Assembly: GCF_964204645.1 (NCBI RefSeq)
Contig: NC_134025.1
Coordinates: 7,879,001-7,943,000 of the forward strand
Reading direction: 5' to 3'
Source of the DNA: Tubulanus polymorphus
Taxonomy: Eukaryota; Nemertea; Palaeonemertea; Tubulaniformes; Tubulanidae
DNA: 64,000 nucleotides
Shown: positions 1 to 16,108 of the stretch, piece by piece
Position numbering within the stretch: the first letter of the stretch is position 1
Layout of the letters: each line of letters begins with the position of its first letter
Program-made: the position numbers and the translations under genes
The notes under the pieces: model-generated
What the model was told of the DNA's origin: nothing
The model's input: only the letters and a program-made list of their open reading frames with translations
Databases searched by the model: none

Positions 1-3000
1 ATATCTGTAGACTTTGAATGCCCTGCGGGTAAGCATCTGGACATGAAACCCTGGATTACTTGTAATACATGGGCGAGTGCTATTTTCAACGTGTTTTGTG
101 ATACAAAAGAGATACGATAATAGTTTTTCGTGTATGTTAGAGTAATATCTGACAGTACCTTCAACGAACAACCGGGTTTTCAGAAGGACCCTTGCCACAC
201 GCAGCCACTAATTGAATCGTAGCTCGCTCTATCAATGAATTGGACCTTTTAGACACGATCAAGTATTCTTCTTGTTTTCGCCAATTACAGTTAACTGTAC
301 CGTCTGTATTAGCCGACTGTCTAATTGAGATACATTCATAGGCTTTTTACGGCTACCTGATTTATTCCAGTAGGGCGTTCTAAAAAAATATCTCCCTTGG
401 AGAAATGATTGCGCTCCAGTGTAAGTCACGTGCCGTCGTTCCACAATTTCTGGACAAAAACCTACAGTTTCCCTACGCCGAAAGATTCATTTGGCTGTGA
501 AACGAATTTTCATTTTGTCAAATTAGCTGATCTAGTAATTTCCCACACGGCCGTAGCGTTGAGTAGAAAATTGAACGAGAATACGAACGAGACACTGATG
601 CGACTTTAAAAAATAGTTCGCATGCATATGAGTGACGTCTCTGAATATCCACTGAATTGCGTAACAGCAAATTCATCTGCATATCATATGGACAAGAAAA
701 AATACATTTGACTCTAGCATATAACATATCAGATATCATCTTTGGACGCCCACTTCTGGGAATATTTCTGCGGCCGGGGTATAGTGATACATATGTAAAC
801 TGCGTGTGTGTGTATCTGTTAAATCATTATCATTGTTTCGTGAATGTTCTTCAATTGTGGACATGTTCTATTAGCGCGAATTATTTTCTGACTAACGTAC
901 ATGGTATTTATTAGTCCCGTCGGGTAACGAACGACTTTCCCATCAATCTATCTTTTTCTGCGAACCCGCAGCGCGCACAACTCCCCCATTACGTCTAGAA
1001 TATATACGTCCCAACATTCACATAGACAATTCATTGTCCGGCACCACGCTGTTTAAGTGGGAATTATATCTCACTGTCAGATAAACGTGTTTTTCAATAA
1101 TCATCAACCATTAATTGCTCACTTTTCTTCCTCAAATACAAAATTCTGTTTATGTTGATAAATTTTAATACGATGAATTTGAAAAAATAAATCCGAATAC
1201 AGTTAATTTGAAAAAGTGAATAAAACCCGGTTTATGTAAAGGCACCCGTCATTGCACGCTAAGATGAGGATATAATATGAATACGTGTATCATGTACTAG
1301 TAAAAAAAGGCTTACTGATGTCACAGGTTCCTGTGTAACGTTTAACCTCAGCGCAATTACAAGCAATTAGCAATAACTGCTCTAAGGTTAAACTAAGTCA
1401 TATAAATATTTGAATCGTCGTAATACATATGAAATGCTATTTAGGAACCTAAATTTGGAAATTCGTTCTCATTCTGAGTACTCAATGACTGGATAAATTC
1501 ATGCACGGATGGATATCTACAACATACGCTTATCACTATACCAGTTTAATAACTCTAAAAAAACTGTAAACTTTATCATATCGTGCGTGCCCACGTGTTC
1601 TTGGCGACTAGAGTGCATTGGCGCCACTTGCTGCTATATGAAAACTCGTAATAAACATCGCATCGCAATGTCGCATTGAACAATTCAATAAGGCCTCTCT
1701 TCATCGAAATTAAGTTCGCGGATGACAGGTATCTGATATGAATCAATTCGATGAGAGCAAGCGATTTTGGAATCTTCTTGTCGTATATGTTATATGTACG
1801 TATATTGTATATTCAACATAATCCAGACGTTTTCGTTATAGTGACGACAGTTCTCAATGTCAATATCGCGTTGTCGTACGAATCATTTCCCTAAATACAC
1901 GTCATATATTTAACACTACCCGTGACAACGGGCATATATTTAGACGTAATATTTTCACTAGCTTGATATGACGAGTCTGACAACTTAGTAAAAAGAAAAT
2001 AACAATCAAAACCAAGCGGGTATCACTCTTCGCCCTATATACCACAGCTGGAACAGCACAAATGGAACCTGCGTATGGTATTTGTAAACCTCAAGACTAT
2101 TGGCCTATTATCGGGCCCAATATTTTAGGAAGGGGCATTTCATGCTGAATAAAATATGCTTGTACTTGCGGAATATTTTAGCCGGGGACTCCAAGGGACA
2201 GGGAAATATTTGTTGGACAGTGTTTTGACCATTTAGTAGGTTAGATAACTTCTATTAATTGAATCAATTAACATATTCATACTGTATGAAAATAGTATAT
2301 GCATATGTGTATTTTATCTATACAAAAAACATATTCTTTCATGTGATGCGAATCTCTAGTCATCCGTAAGCGAGTCAAATAGCCTACTAACTGGTGTTAC
2401 AGCGAGTCTATTCAATGTGGACTTACAGTAACGTATGAGGGGAAATATTTGTCGATTCATTGGGGCTACGAAAAAAGCCACTGCACTTGTTCACGCAGAT
2501 ACCTATCAGGGAGCCAAAACTCACAAGGGTACATGTAACCACTTGAATCTTGGTATCAAAGTACACTGCACTAAATGATCATAGATAAAAAGATATACAG
2601 TAAGCTGCTCATTTCATATAGAGTTAGACAACCTTAACAAGATGATATGAAATAAACGTATGAACCGATTACACACCTCGAATTGCACTGGTTTTGTAAT
2701 ATGGAGTTGTTTTTTCGTCTGCAAAAAAACTATAGTAAATATTGTTCTGCAGAATGTCTATAACTGCGATCGTCAGCTATAAGTGAAGCTGAAAGATAAT
2801 CTGTATTAAGTTGTTTATTGTCCCGTGACGCATTGGAAGAACCTATTACTTACCATTATTTAAACGACCAGACCATGCATCGCAGTTATGCATACTATGC
2901 ATACAGAAAAAAGAACACAGACTCTCCTGTGGTAGATATGAAAATGACGCGAACGATAAACTGCAAATATCAAAAATGTTGAAAGAAGATTAAAGTGCCT

Positions 3001-4011
3001 CGGGGACCCAACCAATCCTCCAACTGGAGACCGTCTTTCAAAAAAGCCCATGCGTACGAATAAAACTGATATATCCATTTGTCATCGTGCGTCGATGATG
3101 GGCAAATTTTCATGTTTATTTCTTCTGAGATACGACGTATGAATCGGCGATTTCTTTGTGCGGTTGGTTTTATTTCGGCAACGTTGACAACATACAAATT
3201 GCCGATTTGGGATGAACGACGGCGGTAATTCGCTTCTTGAAATGCCATTCGCTGCTGAAGTAGCTTTGACAAAATTTATCGACGAATTTATCGTTTGCGT
3301 CTGAAATACTTCTACGGTGATAAATATTGGCAATTCCACGTCGAGATCAAGTCATTCGACATTTTTGCTTCGGAAATTGGAGGCTAATTCCCTAAACATT
3401 TTGATCCATTTGTTTGTACGCTTAACGTGATAGAAAAAGTTAATAGATCGCTTTACAGGAACTGTTTTTCTGGCGTTGAGTTCATTTATCACGATTTTAC
3501 ACCATTTTCGATTTTCACAATTAACTTGCACGTACTCACAATTAACATACGCATTAGTTAATGGCATTCACACAAGACCTGGGGCCTCCTTTAGGTGAGG
3601 TTTGTTATAAAATATGTCGTGAATAATGATCAATAATGTCATTCCATCTTATGTGTACGAGCGTTCCTGTGATATCAATGAACATAGCCAATAGAAATAA
3701 TTGAATGTACCCGCTAAAAATCTACCTACCACGGGTCACACCTAGGGTCCCAGGGAAATCATAGTTTTTATCAATATAATTATTATTTTTCTTAAGTGCG
3801 GAATATTTTAAATTATTGAATTGAAGAAAACCTAATTTGTTGGCAACATATTCAATAAACCTCTCTATACTAATTGTCAATGTCGAGCAAAATACTACAT
3901 TGTACATTAAAGTTACACTACACGATTTTCAAGTAGATTTATAGACACTATGATTATTTTCTGTCGGAACAAACATTCGAACTAAAATACCCTAATTCCA
4001 TCCCGCTTCAG
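1..4011. other. intergenic, no recognised gene
   Basis: I see no convincing gene here. Three overlapping minus-strand reading frames of 71-100 codons lie between 2860 and 3567. They carry no domain I recognise and no flanking splice signals that join them into one frame. The composition is AT-rich. Confidence 0.5.
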
Positions 4012-4303
4012 TCGTGGCAGTCTGCGAATTTCAAAGGCGAATCGATTTTCGCCGAATTTTGCAGAGTTTGCTGCTAAGAGACGCGACGTGAATTGTCTAG
4101 TCTGTGAATAGATTCGCACGAATCAAACATTCTATAGATACCATCGCTGAATTTTTAATCGGCGATTGCCAAATGAATCCGCCCGTGTGTCACCCCTACC
4201 GAATCTTGATTCGGCGAATAAATACATACCGAATCGCATGATCGCTTGATTGGTGAAAAAAGATTCGCCGAAGAAAATCGCCTGTTAGTCTGTCACGCAA
4301 GCT
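4012..4303. repeat. MITE-like inverted-repeat element
   Basis: The left edge (about 4012-4056) and the reverse complement of the right edge (about 4259-4303) share blocks such as GTG-CAG-CT and AGGCGA followed by TTCG-CGAA. The interior is full of GATTCGGCGAA-type words on both strands. This is typical of a short non-autonomous DNA transposon. The ends are diverged, no target-site duplication is clear, and the superfamily is not assigned. Confidence 0.4.
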
Positions 4304-6231
4304 TAACGTATGCAATATTGTTTAGGTAAACCATGGCGTCTAATGTGTAAAGTAAAACCACTATCGCTCCGGAAACCCAAGTTAGATTTAGCACTAAAAC
4401 ATATGTATAGTCGGAATTCTCGGTTCTTTTCCCGATGTTTCTAGAATCTATGTGTATTAACTGCGTGTGGTTTTAGAAAACCGACACTAATCGCTCGTTT
4501 TTTGAGCTGGTGTTAGAGTCACTCATTATCTTACATTCAAGTTGGGTTCAAATGCAACTCGACTTATATCGCTGTATAGGGAACCTATAATTCTCCACTT
4601 GACATGATTTTCAATTGTTATTATTGAAAGATATTCGTCACCATTCAAAAGAGACGACGTTGAAAATGTCTAAGCCATATGTACGTTTGACTGACTTGAG
4701 AGATTTTTTAGAATCATCGCTGTCTTGGTGTAGCGGAGTTCTCCCCTAGACTACAACCACTACGGTTTAATGGAGCAATAAGTACACTTCAATCGTACTT
4801 TTGGTAATGGCTACAGTCTTCAGTGTCGAATTCCATGTGGTGTTCTTTTCTTCACAAGGGCGTCGGATACGCATTTGATTTTCCTGGATATCTACAGGCA
4901 CTTCCGCACAACAAGAGCAACTTGAAAATGCACGGGAAGACCAATTTTGAATTGTTTGAAAATTTCGCATTGTTTGCATCCAAATGATGTATACATAGGC
5001 ATGGATTTTTAGGATCAATCGTCCGAGATATTTTCTTGACCTTTTCGGACTCAATGAATACCTGATTACACTAAAAACGATGGTTGTACATTTGAATACA
5101 AATACATACGGGTAGAAGCCTACTTTCGTATGAAAAAAAAACTATTCTACAAATAACACTATAACTAAAGCTTCTTATCATGTGTTAACTGCATATCATA
5201 TTATACACAAAAAATGTATATATATATTCGGTTAAATTTTGAGACAGATGTGATAAAAAAGTGACAGTTTTATATACAATACAGTTACTTGTGTCTGCTC
5301 TAATTCGAGAGGAGCGGCATTTTCTCGAAAAAAATCCTCTTTATTAACACAGCAGTTCTAATGGTAATATTGTTCTTCCGCCCATAGAACCTCGATCTCA
5401 ATTCCAAGTCATCGCTTATTCGGCTAATGTTTATCTAATGACGTTTTAAAAAGGGAGTTGTTGTTTTCGATTTTTTGACGCTGTAATCGCGTTACTCAAG
5501 TACGTGAGCTGTAGTGCGTCATCAATATTGGGACTATTATTTTCAAGGCGTCAATAATTCTGAGTTACCCCTAGTAGTTTTCTTGATAACTTAAATCCAC
5601 GAACTTGATATTTGATCGAGGGAAAATGACAACATATTGATACAAATGGCGTTGCCAATCGAAAATTTTGACTCCTCACCCTGCCTGGTTGACTAGAATA
5701 TGTTTGTAAACGATAGGCTTATTCAACATCAAGCGTTAAAATTACTTTTATTGATGAAGGTAACCGTTATACCGACCACAATAAGTATTCTATCATCTGA
5801 AAAATTGACTACCGCCTAATCGCTGCGCGGAAATGCCCGGCATACTGTTAGATGGATGGGAGTCTTTGTTGAAGACGGAGCTAAAAGGTTGTTGTGCAGA
5901 CGTAACAATAAGTTCTTACTGGTTCGAATATCAGAGCAAAATCATTCGTCGTAAACGGTGTAATAAATGTATGATATACGAAAAACTTTTAACTTCAGTT
6001 CAGGCAGCTGATTCAGCATTTATCACAACAGGTTTTAGCGCTGTGCAGTTCACTACCGGTACTTTCATCTCGGAGATTCACGGAAAATCTAAATCATACA
6101 GGATTGGCCTTGTTGAGAAGGTTTGTTTTTATTTTCTTCGAGATTTCCAGTGAGGAGCATTAACATTGTATATAAATGTGCACCTGCGGCAGGTTGGAGG
6201 AAATCTATCAACAGATGCGAAGATACATTTC
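4304..6231. other. intergenic, no recognised gene
   Basis: AT-rich sequence up to the left boundary of the CACTA element. A 106-codon open frame at 5833-6153 (+) has no recognisable domain. It may be chance or a fragment of whatever the transposon landed next to. Confidence 0.4.
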
Positions 6232-6233
6232 TA

Positions 6234-6253
6234 CACTGTAAAAACTAAGAACG
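6234..6253 (+). repeat. left terminal inverted repeat of CACTA element
   Basis: A 20-bp sequence beginning CACTG. It is a perfect inverse match to 15955-15974 and is preceded by TA. It defines the 5' edge of the transposon. Confidence 0.92.
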
Positions 6254-6420
6254 CAGTGAACATACTGAGAACACTGAAATAAGGTGTTCCCGAACACTTT
6301 TTAATGAATTTGGAACATCATCGAGTGTTCTAAGCTGATTTAAGTGCAAAAGCTCGTTCTGATGAACGCTGAGAACGGCTATGGAACGGCAAGAACACAC
6401 CGATCACTCCACTAGAGCGT
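6254..6420 (+). repeat. left subterminal repeat region of CACTA element
   Basis: Dense GAACAC, GAACGC, GGAAC and their complement GTGTTC occur on both strands, for example GTGTTCCCGAACAC near 6282-6298. They mirror the GTTCC-rich region at the right end. In CACTA elements such motifs are the binding sites of the element's own DNA-binding protein; that role is inferred here. Confidence 0.7.
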
Positions 6421-7315
6421 ACGTGACTTTTCAAAGCGTTCTAGCACGCTTCACTGCACCTCGCTGACTGTGGAGAATCATCTTTAGTAAGCTTTTGTAT
6501 TCTTGATCTTATAATATTAATCGGCATTCATTGGAAGTAATTATGTCAGATCATGTAGGCCTAAACAAACAGTGCATTTCACAGCCGGCGTAGGCCTAAT
6601 ACGCGCCACGATGCGCCATAAATGCAATGAATGAATGCGGCAGAAAATCTTTTGGCGGAGGCCTCCACCATAACTGCGAGCTAAGTGAAGCCACATTTTT
6701 TCAGACAATTATTAGCGGCCGCTGCCTTGTGAATTAAAGTTTTATACCAAAAAATATTTTCCTCGGTGACTCCGCGCTGTTAATCAGGGCAGGGATCGAA
6801 CCTATGAACTAAAGCTACAATCTCGCTCAAGAAAGTGAATTTGATTGATTTGACTTTTCTCAAGGTCGTTGAGCTTAAGCTGTCTGCTAAAAACGAACAG
6901 TCGCCAAAATTCCACATTCATTGCCTTAAGAAATTATAATTCGAGGCCTTTACGGGTATGATAGTTTACATCTCTGTAGGCCTAAATAAAAAGATAAAAG
7001 CTGCGGTGCATTTTATTGGCATGATGATATACTGAAACTGTGTTATTTTTCTTTTCAGTTTCTTTGCCGTTCAGCCATGCCCATGCAACGATATATTGCA
7101 TTCCAAGATATTACTAGTTTTACGCGCATACTGGAAATTTGCTCTTATTTGAATTTTGACGTCAGCGATGAAGTGATTGATAGCCACTTTACCATATGCT
7201 TTTTTAACATAGGACAGTGCAACCTGATCCAGAATATTTGTGCCTATTATTTGATCGAATATCAAGTCATAAATACAACATTATCGTTGTAGAATCAGTA
7301 CAGTAGAGAGTAAGT
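6421..7315 (+). other. CACTA 5' leader, no coding gene recognised
   Basis: This lies between the left subterminal repeats and the transposase start. It contains a possible SINE B-box-like fragment on the minus strand near 6790-6806 (reads aggttcgatccctgcc). An acceptor-like tract ends in TTTTCAG at about 7060. A 71-codon open frame at 7077-7292 does not look coding. A GTAAGT donor-like hexamer occupies 7310-7315, directly before the transposase ATG, so the transcript leader might be spliced. Confidence 0.4.
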
Positions 7316-9847
7316 ATGGTCTATACTTGTAACTTATGTAACTTTTTTTCAATAAGCAATGATGATTTTAAAAATCACATCTTAAGAAAACATAGAAATG
7401 ATCCACATTTCAAAATAACGTGTGATGCCTGTGGTGCCACCTATCATAATTATTTTTCATATCGTAGTCATTTTAAACGCCACCATGCCCATAGGGAAGA
7501 AGTTGACCATGAACCCGATGACATAGACCTACCAGAACCGCAAAATCTCCAAATAGGCCTAAATGATGATCCTAGACCTGACTTAGGCCTGGTGGAACAT
7601 GATATTCAACAAAATCAAAATGAACTCAATGTTGCAGCAGTTGACCAACTGAAAATGAGTGCTGGGCAATTCATTCTAAAAATGAGAGCTGGCCATAAAA
7701 TAAGTGCAAGAGCAACCTGTGAGATGCTTGAAACAGTCAGCCAGTTTACTGAAATTGTTTCTGAGTGTACTCGTGATAATATTCTTAGATTAGTTCCTGG
7801 ACTGAATGAAGAACAAAAGAATTTGATTACTCATTACTTTGCTGAAAAACAGGATGTATTTGCTGGGCTTCAAAGTACTTATATGCAGAACAAGTTCTTT
7901 AGAGATAATTTCTCTTTGGTTGAACCTGTGGAAATAGTGTTAGGTCATTATTTCAAAAAGGTCAAGGTTAAAGGTAGATATATTTTCAAGAAAGTCCCTG
8001 CTCTTGGCTATTTTATACCATTATTAGAAACTCTTAAATCAATTTTGAGTATACCTCAAGTAAAGAATTGTGCCAATATAAGTCATGCTAGTGAAGATCA
8101 ATACATGCGAGACATGTGCGATGGTACTTATTTCAAAAACCATCCTCTGTTCAAAAAAAACCCGAATGCACTTTGCCTTCTTGCATACTGTGATGATTTC
8201 GAGCTAGCCAATCCGATTGGAACTCATGCCAAATTGCATAAAATAATCATATTCTATGTAGTTGTATGCAACATTCCACCTGAATTACGATCAAAATTGC
8301 CAGTAATTCATCTTGTAGCTGTTACACTGAGAAAGTATATTGTTGGTCACAGGGACAGGCTTCAAAAGCTTCTTAAAAATTTTGTTGATGATCTAAACAC
8401 TCTCTATGATGGGTACACATTCATCTTACCCTCCGGCATATATCGTACTAATGGGACTTTATTGGCATTCACTGGAGATACGCCTGCAGCAAATGAAATT
8501 GCTGGCTTTAAAGAAGGGGTTGGTGGAGCCAGCAAGCCTTGCAGACTTTGTGATATTCATAAGAATGACATGAATGCTATATTCTGTCCCTCTGACTGCA
8601 TGATGCGAGAAGAAGTTGAACATAGAGAGAGGTGTAATTACCTGAAAGAACTTAGTAGGGCTGATAGGCTTCTAATGAGTAGTGAGTATGGGATAAATAA
8701 TGATTCTGTGTTGCAAGGTATCAATGATTTCCAGATAACGAAGTGTTTTCCTATGGATGTCATGCATGTACTACTGGAAGGAATTTGCAATTATGAGACC
8801 AAATTATGTCTTCGACATATGGTATCTGATAAAAACATGAATGTTAGTGTTCTAAACAACTGCATAGCAAATTACAGCTATTCTGAACTTGAAATGAAAG
8901 ATAGACCTCAACCCATAGATAGAAAAACTCTTTTTGGTAATGGAAAACTAAATCAAACGTCTGAATCTATGCGGATATTAATGTATCATTTGCCATTCAT
9001 TTTGAACGCTATGAACATACTAGATGATAGAGATGAGTATTGGAGTAACTGGATACGTCTTCAAAAGATAACTATTCTGAGTTTATCCCCTATTATATCT
9101 GATGAAACTATTGCATTTATAGATATATTGGTTGCAGTACACAACAGAAAATTCGTAGAGATTTATCCCGATGAGAGCTATACGCCCAAATTGCACTATA
9201 TGGTACATTTGGGGGATCAGATGCGAAAATATGGTCCTCTGCGCACACATTGGTGTATGCGCTTCGAAGGGAAACATGGTTTTTTCAAAAAGATGAAATG
9301 GAACAATTTTAAGAATATTGCTCTAGTTATTGCGACAAAGCACCAGCAGTGGCTTTGTCTTCAGCAACTCGGGACGGATGGGCAAAGATCCATGTGTTTC
9401 TTAAATGACGAAGATGACATAAAATTTGGGCACATAATGCATGAAGACGAAGACCATTTCAATGATATAATGACATATTTAGTACGTGAAACACATAGAT
9501 TGCAGATAGGTCCTTTGATGATAAGCCCAAAGATCGTCGTACATGGTCATATTTACATGCCTGACAACATTCTCCTTTTAGAATTCGATGAAGATGAATA
9601 TCCCGTATTTTGTAAGATTACTAAGATTGTAGTTGTTCAGGAAGAGAAATACTTGCTACTTGATAGGTTTTTAGTCGAGAGGTATGATTACACTCTCAAT
9701 GCTTATGAGCTTCGAGAGGATCACTCTTGTAGTAGAAATAAGATCTTGTCTGTTCAGGATCTCCAATTCCCTTGGGTACTGCCCCAAAAATGCTTTGGTT
9801 ATAAGAGATATGTTTTACTTTGCTATAGTCCTCTCGTAATGTTGTAA
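7316..9847 (+). CDS. CACTA/EnSpm-type transposase with C2H2 zinc fingers
   Basis: A single uninterrupted frame of 843 codons ending in TAA. An in-frame stop at 7304 and the first following ATG set the start. Two C2H2-type zinc fingers open the protein (C5-x2-C8...H21-x4-H26 and C36-x2-C39...H52-x3/4-H56/57), presumably for DNA binding. An acidic linker follows at about 60-100. The core carries three motif blocks I take to hold the catalytic acids: a GDTPA block (D388) followed by a GGA...CRLC segment, an FPMDVMH block (D481, DxxH) with LLEG, and a WCMRFEGKH block (E651). Similar blocks occur in many uncharacterised animal transposase-like proteins related to the CACTA transposase_21 group. 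The assignment to CACTA rests chiefly on the CACTG termini around it; the DDE residues are inferred. The frame is intact, with no stops or shifts, so the protein could be functional. Confidence 0.85.
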   Translation: MVYTCNLCNFFSISNDDFKNHILRKHRNDPHFKITCDACGATYHNYFSYRSHFKRHHAHREEVDHEPDDIDLPEPQNLQIGLNDDPRPDLGLVEHDIQQNQNELNVAAVDQLKMSAGQFILKMRAGHKISARATCEMLETVSQFTEIVSECTRDNILRLVPGLNEEQKNLITHYFAEKQDVFAGLQSTYMQNKFFRDNFSLVEPVEIVLGHYFKKVKVKGRYIFKKVPALGYFIPLLETLKSILSIPQVKNCANISHASEDQYMRDMCDGTYFKNHPLFKKNPNALCLLAYCDDFELANPIGTHAKLHKIIIFYVVVCNIPPELRSKLPVIHLVAVTLRKYIVGHRDRLQKLLKNFVDDLNTLYDGYTFILPSGIYRTNGTLLAFTGDTPAANEIAGFKEGVGGASKPCRLCDIHKNDMNAIFCPSDCMMREEVEHRERCNYLKELSRADRLLMSSEYGINNDSVLQGINDFQITKCFPMDVMHVLLEGICNYETKLCLRHMVSDKNMNVSVLNNCIANYSYSELEMKDRPQPIDRKTLFGNGKLNQTSESMRILMYHLPFILNAMNILDDRDEYWSNWIRLQKITILSLSPIISDETIAFIDILVAVHNRKFVEIYPDESYTPKLHYMVHLGDQMRKYGPLRTHWCMRFEGKHGFFKKMKWNNFKNIALVIATKHQQWLCLQQLGTDGQRSMCFLNDEDDIKFGHIMHEDEDHFNDIMTYLVRETHRLQIGPLMISPKIVVHGHIYMPDNILLLEFDEDEYPVFCKITKIVVVQEEKYLLLDRFLVERYDYTLNAYELREDHSCSRNKILSVQDLQFPWVLPQKCFGYKRYVLLCYSPLVML

Positions 9848-9915
9848 ACTGCTGTTGTTTTTATAGATTTTATAGAAGGCTAGGTCACTGGATGTGGTGT
9901 GTCTGTCAGAAACTA

Positions 9916-10076
9916 CAGTGGAACCTCGTTACTTCATGAGACCAGAAAATATGTTCATTATAACTGATATATTTTGAATCCAGTATGAAAAATTATAGGA
10001 GGTCAAATTATCCCATTTTGAACAGTTTGTAATAACCGATAAATCGTTATATCTGATGTTATAACGAGGTTCCATG
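9916..10076. repeat. pogo/Tigger-like MITE nested in the CACTA element
   Basis: The left end reads CAGTGGAACCTCGTTA and the right end is the near inverse TAACGAGGTTCCATG. TA lies on each side (9914-9915 and 10077-10078). Termini of the CAGTnGAACCTCG type with TA target sites are typical of pogo/Tc1-mariner derived MITEs. At 161 bp it cannot encode a protein. It sits between the transposase and the second gene. Confidence 0.7.
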
Positions 10077-10295
10077 TATATCCAACTATCTGACTACTCC
10101 TTTAATGCTAGAATTTTTGTGGAAATATTTCTTATTGCTTAGGTAAACTGTCCGTTTGAAAAAGCAAGGTTTTCAATCTCACACTGACAGTGTCAGCTTT
10201 ATTAAAATATGTGTTCGGTCGACAACAAAACCACACTTCATCGGTGCATAAATTCAGCAGGAAACAAAGTTTTCTTGATCGCGTCATCACTAAAA

Positions 10296-13200
10296 ATGTT
10301 AAAAGATAAAGGTATGTAAGTCGATATTTGGTATTATGTAGTTCAAGTTCAAGTTCATGTAAATATACTGGTTTATTTAATCTTGTATAACAATATTTTT
10401 GGTTGTTTAGCTACGAAATGGTTATCTTCAAGTGAAGATGATCCACCGTCAGTGTACACCAGCGATGGAACTGAGATCTTCGACGAAGAGGTGTTTGAGG
10501 TGATTTCACAAACTGATACGACTCTCCTCATATTAAAGTCTGGTGAAACTCTGATCAATTATGGTGAGTATATAGGCGTATATATTCTTAGAAATGGTGA
10601 ATCATCAAATTATCGTAGTTGTTTTAACTAATTATAATTCAATTATAACTTTTATTAGACGTCCATAAGAGTACTCTTCAACCTGATTTATCTTCGTCAA
10701 CTGATACTGACATCAGCTCAGAAAGGTCTGATTTCATTGATTCGGAGGAATCGGCATCAATTGTGAGTATATCTTTTATATACTATCAATTATAACAGGG
10801 TTCCTACAGCCCCTCAAATCCCTCGAATAACCCTCAAATTTAGAATTGGTCATGTAGCAAGCCTGTAAAATCCAATATTTAAAGGAATTACCAAAACTAA
10901 GCGCTGATGTGGTGGATAAGCTATCAGCCTCTGCATCAGCTGCTGCCGCCGTTTGGGATGAATGTGTGACTCAAATGGCATACGGTTTACTCAAGAGACC
11001 CGAGGGAATCTCGACATCAAGACAATATACAGAGGCATGCCAAGAACTCATAAAAAGATATCCCAATTTGGCCAGAATCTCAGCTGGTAAAGTTACAAAG
11101 CCTTGGGTAAGTAATCATTATATGATATTATAATTACATTATATTATATTATAACCTTTAACTATTTGCATATTAATCTAAAACTTGGAATTTCAATGAA
11201 AAGTGATAGTTCATATCTCAAGTTGGATTCATCGAAGCAAAATCCTGAAATGTTTTTAAGGAAAAAGACTAAATACCGGTATATATGTTATAATTTTTAG
11301 CCCACTTGGCCGAAGGCCATTCGGTTAGTCCCTGTGGTTGGTTGCACAGTTTTGATTTAAGTCCAAAAGTTGTCTTAAATTTTAGAAGTGATCTTAGGTT
11401 GTTAGATTGGCTATAGAACTTAGTTGGTCTTAAGTCTAAGCCGTGACTATGCAACCGGCCCTGGGTCTTAGTGTGGTCTGGCGTGCGTGTGTCATATTTC
11501 TTGTGAACGCTCTACAGACCACAGTTTTTGGCCAATCGGCTTTAAATTCACATATATTGTGTATGACCAAAACATCTCGGAGGAGTTTTATATTTGTATT
11601 AATTGGATCCAAGATGGCTGATTGGCGGCCATCTTGGTTTCTGAAATGTGAAATGAAATGGTCTATCATATGACCAAACAAGGTCATCATATCATCCAAT
11701 ATGGCCGCCTGGTGACCATCTTGGTTTCTGAAAATGCACAATTTTGATATTACCTGATATAATATTCCATGTAGATCTTTCATATTTCATATGAGAATGT
11801 GAAATAGAAGGGTCTATCATATGACCAAACTAGGTCTTCTTAGCACCTGTCCTATTGTGCTTAGATTTTGTTTGATTAAGGTGGCTTTTAAGAAATCGTT
11901 AAGTATGAAAGTGAGACACATTCGGCACTACAGAAAGAAGAGAGATAATACGTCAGCTAGCAGTAGTTACAGGAAGGCAGTTAAGGTTTCAGGTAATTTT
12001 ATGAAATAATAGTTTAGTCGTACATGTATGTATTATTAATGAAATATGGTATGATATTAAAACAGATGAATCTGTTTTAGCTTGCCGTGGTTTGAGTCGG
12101 GAGTCTCCGTCGTCGCCTGTTGGTGGTTTAGACGAAGACCGGAGTTCTTTCACAGCTGTTAAAGCGTCAGGTATTTATAAAATGAATAGTTCGTTGTTGT
12201 TCCTGATAAAATTCCAATCAAATTACCGCATCTAATTAGATGAGTCTCTTTTAGGTCGTTGTGGTTTGAGTCGGGAGTCTCCGTCACCTGTTGGTTTTTT
12301 AAACGAAGGCTGGAGTTCTTGCGAAGCTGTTAAAGCATCAGGTAGTTATAAAATGAATAGTTCGTTGTTGTTCCTGATAAAATTCCAATCAAATTACCGC
12401 ATCTAATTAGATGAGTCTCTTTTAGGTCGTTGTGGTTTGAGTCGGGAGTCTCGGTCACCTATTGTTTTTTTAAACGAAGACTGGAGTTCTTGCGAAGCTC
12501 TTAAATCGTCAGGTATTTATAAAATGAATAGTTCGTTGTTGTTCCTGATAAAATTCCAATCAAATTACCGCATCTAATTAGATGTGTCTCTTTTAGGTCG
12601 TTGTGGTTTGAGTCGGGAGTCTCCGTCACCTGTTGGTTTTTTAAACGAAGGCTGGAGTTCTTGCGAAGCTGTTAAAGCATCAGGTAGTTATAAAATGAAT
12701 AGTTCGTTGTTGTTCCTGATAAAATTCCAATCCAATTACCGCATCTAATTAGATGAGTCTCTTTTAGCTTGCCGTGGTTTGAGTCAGAAGTCTCCGTCAC
12801 CTGTTGGTTTTTTAAACGAAGACTGGAGTTCTTGCGAAGCTGTTAAAGCGTCGGGTAGTTATCTGAAATAATGGTTTAGTTGTATATATGATTGACGAAA
12901 TTCTATTCAGATTATGGTATGATATTAAAACAGACGAGTCTCTTTTAGTTTGCGGTGCTTTGAGTCAGGAGTCTCCGTCGCCCGTTGGTGTTTTAGCTGA
13001 AGACCTGAGTCCTTCTGAAGTCTCAAATAGTGGTAAGAATGATTCCAAAGTATATGAAATGTATTAATGTGAATTGAGTTCAGATGCCTCTTTTCTTTAA
13101 TCTCTTAGACCAAGCTGACCTTGCTATGTTAGGAGAAAAGCGATTGTTGGACCGACCAAAGATATTCAAACTGATGAAGGCCACACTAGCGCAGCGTCGA

Positions 13201-14702
13201 CAGGAAATAAGAAATTCAGGCGATATACTTTTCTTCATGCAAAAGTATAAATTTTTTCAACATTTAGATTATGTGAGTGCAAATATCTTTGATTTTGAAA
13301 TTTCCACATCAAATAAGATTTATTTGGTTGTAAAGTTTGTTTTGGATATTTTTAGATTTTCGAGGAATTTCATTTGATGGGATATGCAAGGGACTTTCTA
13401 CATAATTTTTCTCAGAGATATGAATCAATGTTAGAAAAGTTAGCCACTTTGGCTATGATGAATGGAGATATTAGCGTAAGTCGCCTAGCCCGATTGATGT
13501 TGATTTTTTAAATTACGAAGTACACTTTGAAGAGTTCTGCTTGGATAATGTAATCCTGCTATTTTCATCTGTAAGCTTCAACATTTTGTCCATGTTTCAA
13601 CACATGGCTAAATCTATATAGCTGCGTTCACACGACAACTAGTTAGACCGGTCTAAATCGGTCCGCACTGGGCCCACAGGATGTCGCCATGAGTATTTTA
13701 CCCCAAAATTTATGTAAATGATCATAGATTTATGATTCCCTGGCAGTTTTTTATTTGAACAATTTTGACGCAGTGTACCATATATCTGGACACATCAACC
13801 TATAATAGATTCTAGGTATTTTCCAGAACAATTTATAGGGATATCTATTCAACTATCAACATACGCTGAGATTTTAAGATAAATAATAATCCGTTAGCGT
13901 ACACATTAATTTTAGGTAGTAAAGAAATTATATGAAATCTTAAAACTATATTAATAGGCTTGATAAGTAATTGCTGACGATACAATTGAATTGATATTGC
14001 AGAGTACGATTTAGACCGGCTCCTAGTACCAGTTTCTCTCCACGGCACACACACAGATTTAGTTCTGTCCTAATTTAGACCCATCTTAATAATGTCGTCT
14101 AAACGCGCCTATACAGTATATGTATTCTAAACCTACGTATTTATCATTCTAGGAGGATCAGCATCAGATTGCTTTGATTGAGTTTGTACACAAGGAAACA
14201 AGCTACAATTATTCACGTTGTATAATTTCCGTTGTTGACGTAAGTTCATTTGCCTAAGCTTGAGCTAATTATGAAAATATCTGGTACTTAAAATATTTCT
14301 GGTATTTAAAACATTTCTCTGACTTGAATTTAAGGATAGTCAAAATCTCATACAATGTTTTTATGGTTACAGTATTGGTATTTTTAGGAAGTGGACTTTG
14401 GAAAGACCAGCAATTCAGAAAATTCAGCATTCCCAAGTATTGTTGTGGTTGGTGATGGGGTATCGTATGCGCAATATTTTCTTTCTATCGGAACAGTGCT
14501 TATCGATTGTACCACCTACAAAGATCTATCCGGAATCAAGTTAGCATTACTGGCAACACTGGTATTGTACTACATTTTTGACCTGAACTATCCGAGACCT
14601 TTCAAGGAGTCCCTATCATTCTTTCAGGCAGTTCTATTTCAAGAAAATTGTCGTAAAGGCAATAGAACGGCCAAATTATTCAGCCATTTTACATGTAGTT
14701 AA
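10296..14702 (+). CDS. second CACTA-borne gene, SAMD3-like C terminus, 15 exons
   Basis: Spliced coding exons that I joined: 10296-10311, 10411-10563, 10659-10762, 10885-11106, 11881-11992, 12081-12170, 12255-12341, 12426-12512, 12597-12683, 12768-12854, 12949-13032, 13109-13272, 13356-13475, 14153-14239, 14388-14702. All junctions are GT-AG and phase-compatible, giving 604 codons plus a TAA stop. Residues 1-90 are acidic and serine-rich. Residues 91-200 contain a helical segment ending in ELIKRYPNLARI and a basic stretch. Then come six ~29-residue repeats from the tandem exons. The C-terminal ~230 residues (LMKATLAQRRQEIR, FVHKETSYNYSR, SIVVVGDGVSYAQYFLSIG, YYIFDLNYPRPFKESLSFFQ) resemble, from memory, the C-terminal region of SAMD3-like animal proteins. 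No SAM domain is visible. By position it may be the TnpA-like partner of the transposase, which is inference. The exon 5 acceptor (AAG at 11880) is the weakest junction. Confidence 0.72.
11337..11460. repeat. MITE in intron 4 of the second CACTA gene
   Basis: The left end (GGTTGGTTGCACAGTTTTGA...) and the reverse complement of the right end (GGCCGGTTGCATAGTCACGG...) match over about 40 bp with divergence, including TTAAGTC / CTTAAGACC blocks. It is a short non-autonomous inverted-repeat element. No transposase is present. Confidence 0.5.
11600..11835. repeat. compound repeat in intron 4 of the second CACTA gene
   Basis: The 20-mer GGTCTATCATATGACCAAAC occurs at 11660-11679 and again at 11811-11830 (period 151). 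CCATCTTGGTTTCTGAAA also occurs twice. CCAAGATGGCTGATTGGCGGCCATCTTGG forms a hairpin near 11608-11637. Together they look like a repeated, partly inverted MITE that makes up most of the second half of this 774-nt intron. Confidence 0.55.
12081..13032 (+). repeat. tandem array of six coding repeat units (~171 bp period)
   Basis: Exons start at 12081, 12255, 12426, 12597, 12768 and 12949, so spacing is 174, 171, 171, 171 and 181 bp. The four central units have an 87-nt exon plus an 84-nt intron and are nearly identical, introns included. The flanking units are more diverged (90- and 84-nt exons). Every exon starts and ends in phase 1, so any number can be included or skipped without a frame change. 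Each encodes a ~29-residue unit with the pattern CGLSRESPSPVGFLNEDWSS-EAVK. The high intron identity indicates recent unequal exchange or slippage. Confidence 0.85.
13621..14108. repeat. MITE in intron 13 of the second CACTA gene
   Basis: The left end (GCTGCGTTCACACGACAACT, then GACCGGTCTAAATCGG) pairs with the reverse complement of the right end (GGCGCGTTTAGACGACATTA, then GATGGGTCTAAATTAGG). The inverted repeat is about 45 bp and imperfect. It fills most of the 677-nt intron 13476-14152. The interior has no gene. Confidence 0.55.
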
Positions 14703-14790
14703 ATAATACATGTAGTTGAATTCCTGGAAAATCCAGCCTTGGTAAACTAATGAGTAGTTTGAGTAAAAATACAATATTAGAATTGAAATC

Positions 14791-14960
14791 TGACAGTGAG
14801 ATTTAAAAGATCAGTTTGGTGGAGCAGATTTTGTGGCCTTTTAAAGTGAGAAGGGTCAGTGTGATTCTACGAGGCATTCATTAATTCATTCATCCTGACC
14901 CTACTCACTTTAAAAGGCCACAACATTTGCTCCACTTAGGCGATCTTTAATTTCAGGGTC
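14791..14960. repeat. foldback element downstream of the second CACTA gene
   Basis: Arms 14791-14859 and 14895-14960 are near-perfect inverse copies. The best block is TGTGGCCTTTTAAAGTGAG on the left against CTCACTTTAAAAGGCCACA on the right. About 35 nt of loop separates them. The transcript could form a long hairpin, so a 3' end or processing role is possible, but a nested foldback transposon is simpler. Confidence 0.65.
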
Positions 14961-15038
14961 AAATTTCATCTTCAATAATAATTTTTCACTAAAACTGTAT
15001 GCTATAAAACTACATTTCTGTATAGGCGGTAACTGTTA

Positions 15039-15150
15039 GGAATTTCATTTCAGGGGATATGTAAGGGATTTTCTAAGTGATTTTTCTCAAAGATATGAAT
15101 CAATGATTGAAAAGTTAGCCACTTTGGCTTGGATGAGTGAAGATATTATC
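15039..15150 (+). pseudogene. degenerate copy of exon 13 of the second CACTA gene
   Basis: This stretch matches exon 13356-13475 closely (GGAATTTCATTT, GATATG-AAGGGA-TTTCTA, CAAAGATATGAATCAATG, GAAAAGTTAGCCACTTTGGCT). It lacks a clean frame and donor, and an in-frame TAG follows at about 15154. It looks like a partial duplication of the gene's 3' part within the transposon. Confidence 0.7.
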
Positions 15151-15293
15151 ATTTAGATGAACTAGAAAATGCGCATTCAGAAAAGAAATAAACCTGGAAA
15201 ATCGGCAGAATTTTGAATTTGCTTGAACTATATATGCTCTTCTTTGATTGTGTTTTTATTTCACGCTTAAGGCTGAACTGTTCAGATATATTA

Positions 15294-15660
15294 TATTATG
15301 TTTTTTAGTGATGCAGACTGAGATGGTCAGATATATATTTTACCATGTGAATGACATGTACTAATGCAGCTATTAAAAGGCAGCATTCTCTTAAAAAGAG
15401 CGTGTATGTATTTGATTTACGCTTATTGTGGCCAAATACATTGGTTAAGGATTTTGATTCAATGGAGTTTGTGCACAAAGAAACCAGATACATTTTATTA
15501 TGTTTTTTAGTGATGCTGACTGAGATAGTCAGATATATATTTTACCATGTGAATGACATGTGCTAATGCAGCTATTAAAAGGCAGCATTCTCTTAAAAAG
15601 AGCGTGTATGTATTTGATTTACGCTTATTGTGGCCAAATACATTGGTTAAGAATTTTGAT
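15294..15660 (+). repeat. 202-bp tandem duplication in CACTA 3' region
   Basis: Two copies, about 15294-15456 and 15496-15660, with period 202 bp. Both contain GTTTTTTAGTGATGC, TTTTACCATGTGAATGACAT and GGCCAAATACATTGGTTAAG. The segment between the copies (about 15450-15490) resembles exon 14 (GAGTTTGTGCACAAAGAAAC versus GAGTTTGTACACAAGGAAAC at 14178). These are probably remains of duplicated gene sequence. The 66-71-codon frames here do not look like genes. Confidence 0.7.
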
Positions 15661-15762
15661 ACTTCCTTTTTGACAATTTTAATTCAAAATAATAAAATTT
15701 TGGATTTCAAGATTAATCTCATCTTTTTGGTTTTTCTGCCGGGAATGTGTTGAGTTTTGCAA

Positions 15763-15954
15763 TGTTCCCTCAGGTGTTCCGGAGTTCTACAAGTGTGTTC
15801 CCAAAAGGTGTTCTTGCAGTGTTCCCACTGGTGTTCCAGAGTTCTAAGAGTATGTTCCCAAAAGGAGTTCTCGTAATGTTCCCACAAGTGTTCCATGATT
15901 TAAGTGTTCCAAAACTCTACTCAACTGAAAATGTTCTAAGTAGTGTTCAAGATA
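15763..15954 (+). repeat. right subterminal repeats of CACTA element (57-bp units)
   Basis: TGTTCCC-led units begin at 15763, 15820 and 15877, so the period is exactly 57 bp. Each contains GTGTTCC followed by GAGTTCT, then TGTTCCCAAAAGG. A shorter partial unit follows. They mirror the GGAAC/GAACAC words inside the left end. These are probable binding sites for an element-encoded protein, by analogy to CACTA elements in general. The apparent MFPQVF-type peptide repeats read through here are not a gene. Confidence 0.78.
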
Positions 15955-15974
15955 CGTTCTTAGTTTTTACAGTG
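15955..15974 (-). repeat. right terminal inverted repeat of CACTA element
   Basis: An exact reverse complement of 6234-6253, followed by TA. It marks the 3' edge of the transposon. Confidence 0.92.
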
Positions 15975-16108
15975 TACTGAATCACATTTCTACAATTCAT
16001 TCTTAAAATCTACCGCGTGTAGGATTTTTACTGGTCTTTCCCCGAAAATACGCACTCAGCCGCTGCGCCTGCGGAGTCGATCTCGCAAGTGCCCGAGGAA
16101 ACTGCGCC

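Follow-up and report, generated by a model that had tools for sequence, protein, structure and literature searches.

CACTA systems that work with two proteins are understood mainly from plants. In En/Spm, TnpA binds short subterminal repeats, and arrays of such repeats are expected in CACTA elements that have a partner protein binding to their ends. The roles of TnpA and TnpD have been summarized (PMC1636069), plant-type CACTA/EnSpm elements are described with a target-site duplication (TSD) of 3 base pairs (bp) (PMC4158355), and CACTA/EnSpm (CMC) transposases have been defined by a C(2)C, H(3-4)H and DDE motif (PMC12730594). The description of SmTRC1 from Schistosoma mansoni gives direct repeats of 2 bp for 7 of 14 copies and reports that the extra proteins resemble none from other elements (PMC1636069). 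For certain fungal transposons, the TET/JBP cargo has been proposed to aid in evading silencing by methylation (PMC12730594). Here we describe a CACTA-type element in a 64,000-nucleotide stretch of the genome of the nemertean Tubulanus polymorphus (NC_134025.1, positions 7,879,001 to 7,943,000; the whole stretch is called the window), in which a 15-exon gene lies downstream of the transposase gene. One accessory protein can be recognized here beside transposases that are 22-25% identical. Sequence comparisons indicate that this is very probably a functional accessory gene of the transposon, which would belong to a two-gene CACTA-type lineage.

Linkage of the accessory gene to diverged transposases

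When the C-terminal half of the window protein was compared with the host genome, 53 matches were obtained that group by place into 15 loci, and 12 of these have a same-strand transposase match 1.8-5.0 kilobases (kb) upstream. The body of its relative at locus L020 gave 14 matches at 13 loci, eight of them linked at 0.8-3.0 kb. Together, 20 of the 28 loci have a related same-strand transposase 0.8-5.0 kb upstream, and chance alone would place a match on the right strand and within 6 kb at a rate of ~0.0006 per locus (for 55 transposase matches). A sequence-only reading, made earlier by a model from the letters and their open reading frames, had asked whether matches to the gene lie beside matches to the transposase; most of them do, in deeply diverged families as well. 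Two loci, L032 and L033, were picked from the 55 matches by their transposase alone, and in both the body and the terminal module lie downstream, although these two loci are absent from the genome matches of the L020 body.

The transposases of one sister family (L010, L011, L013 and L016; the 46% family) are 45-46% identical to that of the window, and those of L025, L032 and L033 are 22-25% identical to it and 36-54% identical among themselves. The order of the accessory parts is identical throughout the families, and the terminal modules of the window and of the deeply diverged group match by hhalign with an E-value of 3.6e-7 and a probability of 93%. In seven comparisons, drawn between families or subfamilies and including one that is contained in another, the proportion of amino-acid-changing differences (pN) in the accessory exons is 0.31-0.47, against 0.825-0.96 for silent differences (pS); judged from these comparisons, the exons are under purifying selection between families. 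Donor sites fall at the same codons in the window and its relatives, namely after W in the window and L010 (the end of exon 4), after Y in the window, L010 and L017, and after D in the window and L017. Because the relatives adjoin the transposases of very different sister transposons, the gene looks, from its sequence surroundings, like a long-kept transposition helper and not like a recently captured host gene.

The sister families have element ends of their own. Copies of the 46% family are very alike and end in CACTCTAAAAAC, with matching TSDs in two of the four (TA for L009/L010, TT for L011/L012); L013/L014 and L015/L016 are without a matching TSD, the 5' terminus of L015/L016 is changed, and in L013 a stop interrupts the middle-domain exon. 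The copies of the L025 family (~25-27% transposase identity) on C2, C4 and C8 are ~99% alike. Those on C8 and C4 have a terminal inverted repeat (TIR) of CACTGTTA..., starting with CACTGTTAAAAATAACTG and ending, inverted, with CACTGTTAGAAA, and are flanked by the TSDs TA and TG. L025 and these two sisters encode most of the accessory protein in one 417-codon frame. At L027, a 798-codon frame (2280-4673; C1:12658779-12661172, minus strand) joins the first part of the accessory protein to the second half of the transposase; it sits in a tandem transposase-accessory duplication and is either a product of unequal exchange or a genuine fusion gene.

The window element and its transposase

Seven full copies of the element were found (the window copy and L001-L006). 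All seven have CACTG...CAGTG termini and a 2-bp TSD, read from the flanks as TA in four, TG in two and TT in one, which places them in CACTA/EnSpm (CMC) as delimited by CAC...GTG termini and a TSD of 2-5 bp; the 3-bp TSD of classical plant CACTA/EnSpm is absent. The copies in the window and at L001, L002 and L003 are 100% identical across 9,741 bp, and the element has therefore moved recently, these four identical full-length copies lying at four places. L006 carries an extra base near the start of the transposase frame.

The residues C412-C415, H630-H634, D296, D391 and E654 are invariant across four diverged transposases, in the C(2)C, H(3-4)H and DDE arrangement of CMC enzymes. The three acids are, by our own assignment from the alignment, the putative catalytic residues. 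Pfam DUF4218 and Transposase_21 match below the cut-off only. The DUF4218 profile gave 10 matches in the host genome, one of which (C3:13130945) overlaps a transposase match, a result that is uninformative for the window family. No relative of the transposase or of P0001 was found in the viral contigs.

Table 1. Features of the window element, in window positions
Feature	Position	Strand	Description
CACTA/CMC element	6234..15974	+	9,741 bp; CACTGTAAAAACTAAGAACG TIR at each end; TSD TA at 6232-6233 and 15975-15976
5' terminal 350 bp	6234..6583		TIR and 7 GAACA motifs (5 inward, 2 reversed)
Transposase open frame	7307..9847	+	846 codons stop-to-stop; N-terminal C2H2 pairs; C412xxC415, H630x3H634; putative catalytic D296, D391, E654
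Accessory gene	10209..14702	+	15 exons, 672 amino acids; same strand as transposase
Exons 1-2	10209-10311, 10411-10563	+	CIDE-N domain, residues 20-81 (Pfam)
Exon 3	10659..10762	+	Ser/Thr/Asp-rich, acidic linker
Exons 4-5	10858-11106, 11881-11992	+	Middle domain, basic stretch at its end
Exons 6-11	12066..13032	+	Six tandem exon-plus-intron units, 171-181 bp spacing, all phase 1-1
Exons 12-14	13109..14239	+	Conserved body (DRPKIFKLMK...FVHKETSYNYS)
Exon 15	14388..14702	+	Terminal module (YYIFDLNYP...FFQ), common to deeply diverged families
Second copy of most of exon 13	15038..15148	+	87% identical, 3' of the stop codon
3' terminal 350 bp	15625..15974		12 GAACA motifs in a single orientation, then TIR

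Structure of the accessory gene

The claim that 15 exons join without frame conflict entirely inside the transposon holds: all introns are GT-AG, the chain is in frame over 10296-14702, and it lies within 6234-15974. The start and the length had to be revised. An ATG at 10296 was tried as the start and rejected, since exon 1 reaches back in frame to an ATG at 10209, preceded by an in-frame TAA at 10203, and the additional 29 residues complete an N-terminal CIDE-N domain. The protein has 672 residues from the upstream ATG and 643 from the downstream one; the 604 residues given earlier were not reproduced. The same 15 exons are free of gaps and stops in all six other full copies, two of which have a mutated splice site (one donor in L004, one acceptor in L006). 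Randomly assembled exon chains were open in 0 of 2000 trials, a weak null on which we do not lean.

The middle of the protein had been called a variable tandem-repeat region. The six tandem units bear out the repeats and not the variability, as neither exon gaps nor differences in unit number occur among the seven full copies. In the repeat exons a further AG, likewise in frame, lies 15 bases 3' of the acceptors used and offers an alternative to them. Downstream of the stop codon, most of exon 13 occurs a second time; this duplicate has matches at the equivalent place in L007, L019 and all six full copies outside the window, and could be an alternative (last) exon or a leftover one. At 14806-14948, shortly 3' of the same stop codon, lies a hairpin whose 59-bp arms are 83% complementary.

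Domains of the accessory protein

The N-terminus of the window protein belongs to the Pfam family CIDE-N (PF02017), with an E-value of 5.2e-8 and 33.3 bits against a gathering cut-off of 23.5. With the start at 10296 the score is only 21.7 bits, below the cut-off, and the domain went unmentioned in the earlier reading because its start codon was placed too far downstream. Among the relatives, Pfam scores CIDE-N above the cut-off at L020 (25.4 bits) and below it at L021 (15.9) and L024 (18.2), and a piece of the window N-terminus aligns by tblastn in L010 (65% over 20 residues). The nearest solved chains are DREP2 and CIDE-3, at E-values of 0.15-0.3 that are not significant alone. CIDE domains are described as assembling charge-based head-to-tail filaments (PMC8647176), and of the five acidic positions listed there for the interface, the window protein appears to keep four, if its DGT is aligned, in a comparison made by eye and without the DREP3 sequence. 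Pfam recognizes no family in the C-terminal half or body, and no nuclease/CAD or DFF-C region at E-values up to 1 for the whole 643-residue version and up to 10 for its parts. The exon 15 module was predicted with a mean predicted local distance difference test score (pLDDT) of 64. A BEN-like fold, considered for the middle domain, was set aside, no sequence or fold match being found in its support, in a fold search that does not exclude it.

The N-terminal stretch of L025 and L027 reads as SAM-like by eye only. Pfam finds no SAM domain in the N-termini of L025, L027 and L026, for all of which one was suspected by eye, and a two-sequence profile gave nothing significant against the sequences of the PDB (best E-value 0.51). 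An exchange of the N-terminal module between families, CIDE-N against SAM-like, is put forward here as a hypothesis. CIDE-N exons also occur without a related transposase in the surrounding 9.9 kb, at C3:15396272 (L022, 4746-5078) and C4:17386301 (L023), each with 46 bits and the same printed translation; at L023, a RING-like frame was seen by eye downstream of the exon, and a long frame of retroelement type upstream.

Subterminal repeats and a possible role at the transposon ends

The motif GAACA occurs 12 times in the last 350 bp of the window element and 7 times in the first 350 bp, whereas the remainder of the element would predict 0.9 per 350 bp. In 2000 resamplings under a dinucleotide model, the 5' count averaged 1.2 and reached 7 once, and the 3' count averaged 1.7 and never reached 12. 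For the 46% family, a single element (L009/L010) was counted, with 13 GAACA motifs at the 3' end and 7 at the 5' end. The window element thus has a subterminal repeat array at both ends, and it encodes the second protein beside the transposase, two features expected of a TnpA-like system. The suggestion of a TnpA-like DNA-binding or regulatory partner gains from this position inside the element, from the linkage in diverged families and from the GAACA repeats; binding itself is left as a prediction.

The explanation that we favor is that of a TnpA-like accessory protein that would oligomerize and pair the transposon ends, and taken whole we give it somewhat better than an even chance. The CIDE-N module would join molecules head to tail, and the C-terminal body would bind the GAACA repeats or the transposase, with the region of repeat exons acting as a flexible linker, in which phase 1-1 exons can vary in number with the frame intact. 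The resulting oligomer would gather both ends and stabilize the transposase there, in the way that TnpA does in plant En/Spm. By analogy with known CIDE domains, oligomerization through the N-terminal module is probable; action at the transposon ends, which the repeats and the gene's position suggest, is only slightly favored over its opposite.

Several observations weigh against this explanation or parts of it. The 20 linked loci are not independent, as they include seven copies of the window element, four of the 46% family and three of the L025 family, and 8 of the 28 body loci are without a linked transposase. Between the groups, the body profiles align in the same register with an E-value of 0.002 and an hhalign probability of only 14%, and the middle-domain profiles with an E-value of 0.023 and a probability of 2%. 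Within the seven near-identical copies, 14 exon changes alter an amino acid and 4 are silent, a pattern that looks neutral and is uninformative on selection. CIDE-N exceeds the Pfam cut-off only in the window family and at L020, with no match in the pieces of the 46% family given to Pfam (L010, L016). The structure predicted for the 417-residue relative is a poor model (mean pLDDT 53.6, ~75-86 around residues 121-180), and fold searches returned no convincing match (Foldseek, none at an E-value of 0.001 or better; VIA-align, best Z 4.6). By eye, the L025 family is without the GAACA motif, and TGTAA/TTACA recurs at its ends instead. Finally, the C2H2 pairs of the transposase, as zinc fingers, could equally well be the readers of GAACA.

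Some of the unlinked loci can be traced. L007 (C12:8160325) is a 5'-truncated copy of the window element that keeps the 3' TIR, and at L019 (C10:8914066) the pieces of a split transposase, mostly ~90% identical, are found at a distance of 22-34 kb on the upstream side. No related transposase was found within the 9.9 kb fetched around L008 (C5:9916579), nor within the 8.5 and 8.0 kb fetched around L030 (C4:16299058) and L031 (C3:13152206). The loci L029 (C12:10012247) and L028 (C12:10189957) are followed by a frame read by eye as a different transposase, and C12:10924238 is the fifth unlinked locus among the 13 of the L020 body. The body fragments at L028 (5992-6513) and L029 (1211-1732) stand directly before that frame, which at L028 has no Pfam match, and further mobile-element-like frames lie upstream of them.

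Among the alternatives, a factor that binds the ends to relieve methylation or regulate a promoter, as described for the TnpA of Spm (PMC1636069), and that is dispensable for cutting, would also fit GAACA arrays that lie at both ends and are densest at the 3' end. We think it unlikely as stated, but it is compatible with, and not exclusive of, an end-pairing protein. Less probable still is a role directed at the host, in which the accessory CIDE-N would pair with DFF40/DFF45-type proteins, blunt the DNA fragmentation triggered by damage and so protect cells with breaks made by the element. The domain family does mediate the pairing of DFF40 with DFF45 (PMC8647176), and the genome holds other strong CIDE-N exons, those at C3:15396272 and C4:17386301, but what the sisters L025, L027, L010 and L016 keep is the C-terminal modules, and Pfam sees no CIDE-N in their N-terminal pieces as given, so that CIDE-N does not stand out as the gene's constant part. 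Capture of a host gene as Pack-type cargo, which the earlier reading had entertained, could account for the multi-exon structure, for a domain that occurs in cellular proteins and for the body loci that lack a linked transposase; it is nevertheless very improbable, as most relatives lie beside transposases, the linkage persists across families with transposases 22-25% identical, and L007 and L019 are themselves a truncated element and a neighbor of transposase pieces. The reading in which the exons were chained together by an error of prediction, with no protein of this kind ever produced, is barely credible despite the damaged splice site in two of the seven copies, given a frame intact in all seven, conserved donor positions, a recognizable domain, silent differences that exceed amino-acid ones between families, and the single long frame of L025 and its C8 and C4 sisters.

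Comparison with known systems

The CIDE-N domain is what the window protein has in common with DFF40, DFF45 and the CIDE proteins and with the DREP proteins of the fly. Unlike DFF40/DFF45, it has no nuclease or DFF region recognized by Pfam, and its remainder matches no Pfam family. CIDE-N is reported as enriched in both Hydra viridissima (10 genes) and H. vulgaris (7 genes) and is counted among DNA-binding motifs, and DUF4218 (47 genes) is reported as enriched in H. viridissima (PMC7642931, Table 2); these enrichments may reflect CACTA-borne genes. Among the matches listed in a search of open-access full text for CIDE-N or SAMD3 together with transposon or transposase, nothing named this gene.

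The body motifs YGCxNW, WPxL, HFxxL and YxVFNxxYP of L020 and L025 may resemble those of animal SAMD3-like proteins, and the sequence-only reading had seen such a likeness in the C-terminal third of the window protein; unlike these proteins, that of the window starts with CIDE-N. A lineage of animal CACTA transposons can be envisaged whose long-carried accessory gene combines a fixed C-terminal body with an exchangeable N-terminal module for oligomerization, CIDE-N in certain families and a SAM-like helical one in others. SAMD3 and its SAMD3-like kin in animals would derive from this gene, as mobile or domesticated copies, and the enrichments seen in Hydra would be left by these transposons. 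This proposal is tentative, and we would sooner expect it to fail than to hold. If the SAMD3 link is true, some of the CIDE-N and SAMD3-like genes counted in animal genomes are transposons. In addition, the front of the protein is in some families a known filament-forming module, which offers a specific and testable proposal for the way in which a large transposon could bring its two ends together.

The window element resembles plant En/Spm, with its TnpA and TnpD, in having TIRs that start with CACT, a DDE transposase together with a second protein, and short subterminal repeats; it differs in a TSD of 2 bp instead of 3 bp and in a second protein that is encoded by a downstream gene and carries CIDE-N. 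SmTRC1 is likewise an animal element of CACTA type, whose extra proteins were proposed, in its description, to take the role of TnpA (PMC1636069). Its TIRs start with CCC, unlike those of the window element, and the likeness drawn here is one of description. The EnSpm and other fungal DNA transposons that carry TET/JBP, some of them in the same superfamily, also have an extra gene aboard (PMC12730594). TET/JBP, however, is an enzyme passed among unrelated transposon lineages, whereas the accessory gene described here is found, in this genome, with one broad lineage of transposases.

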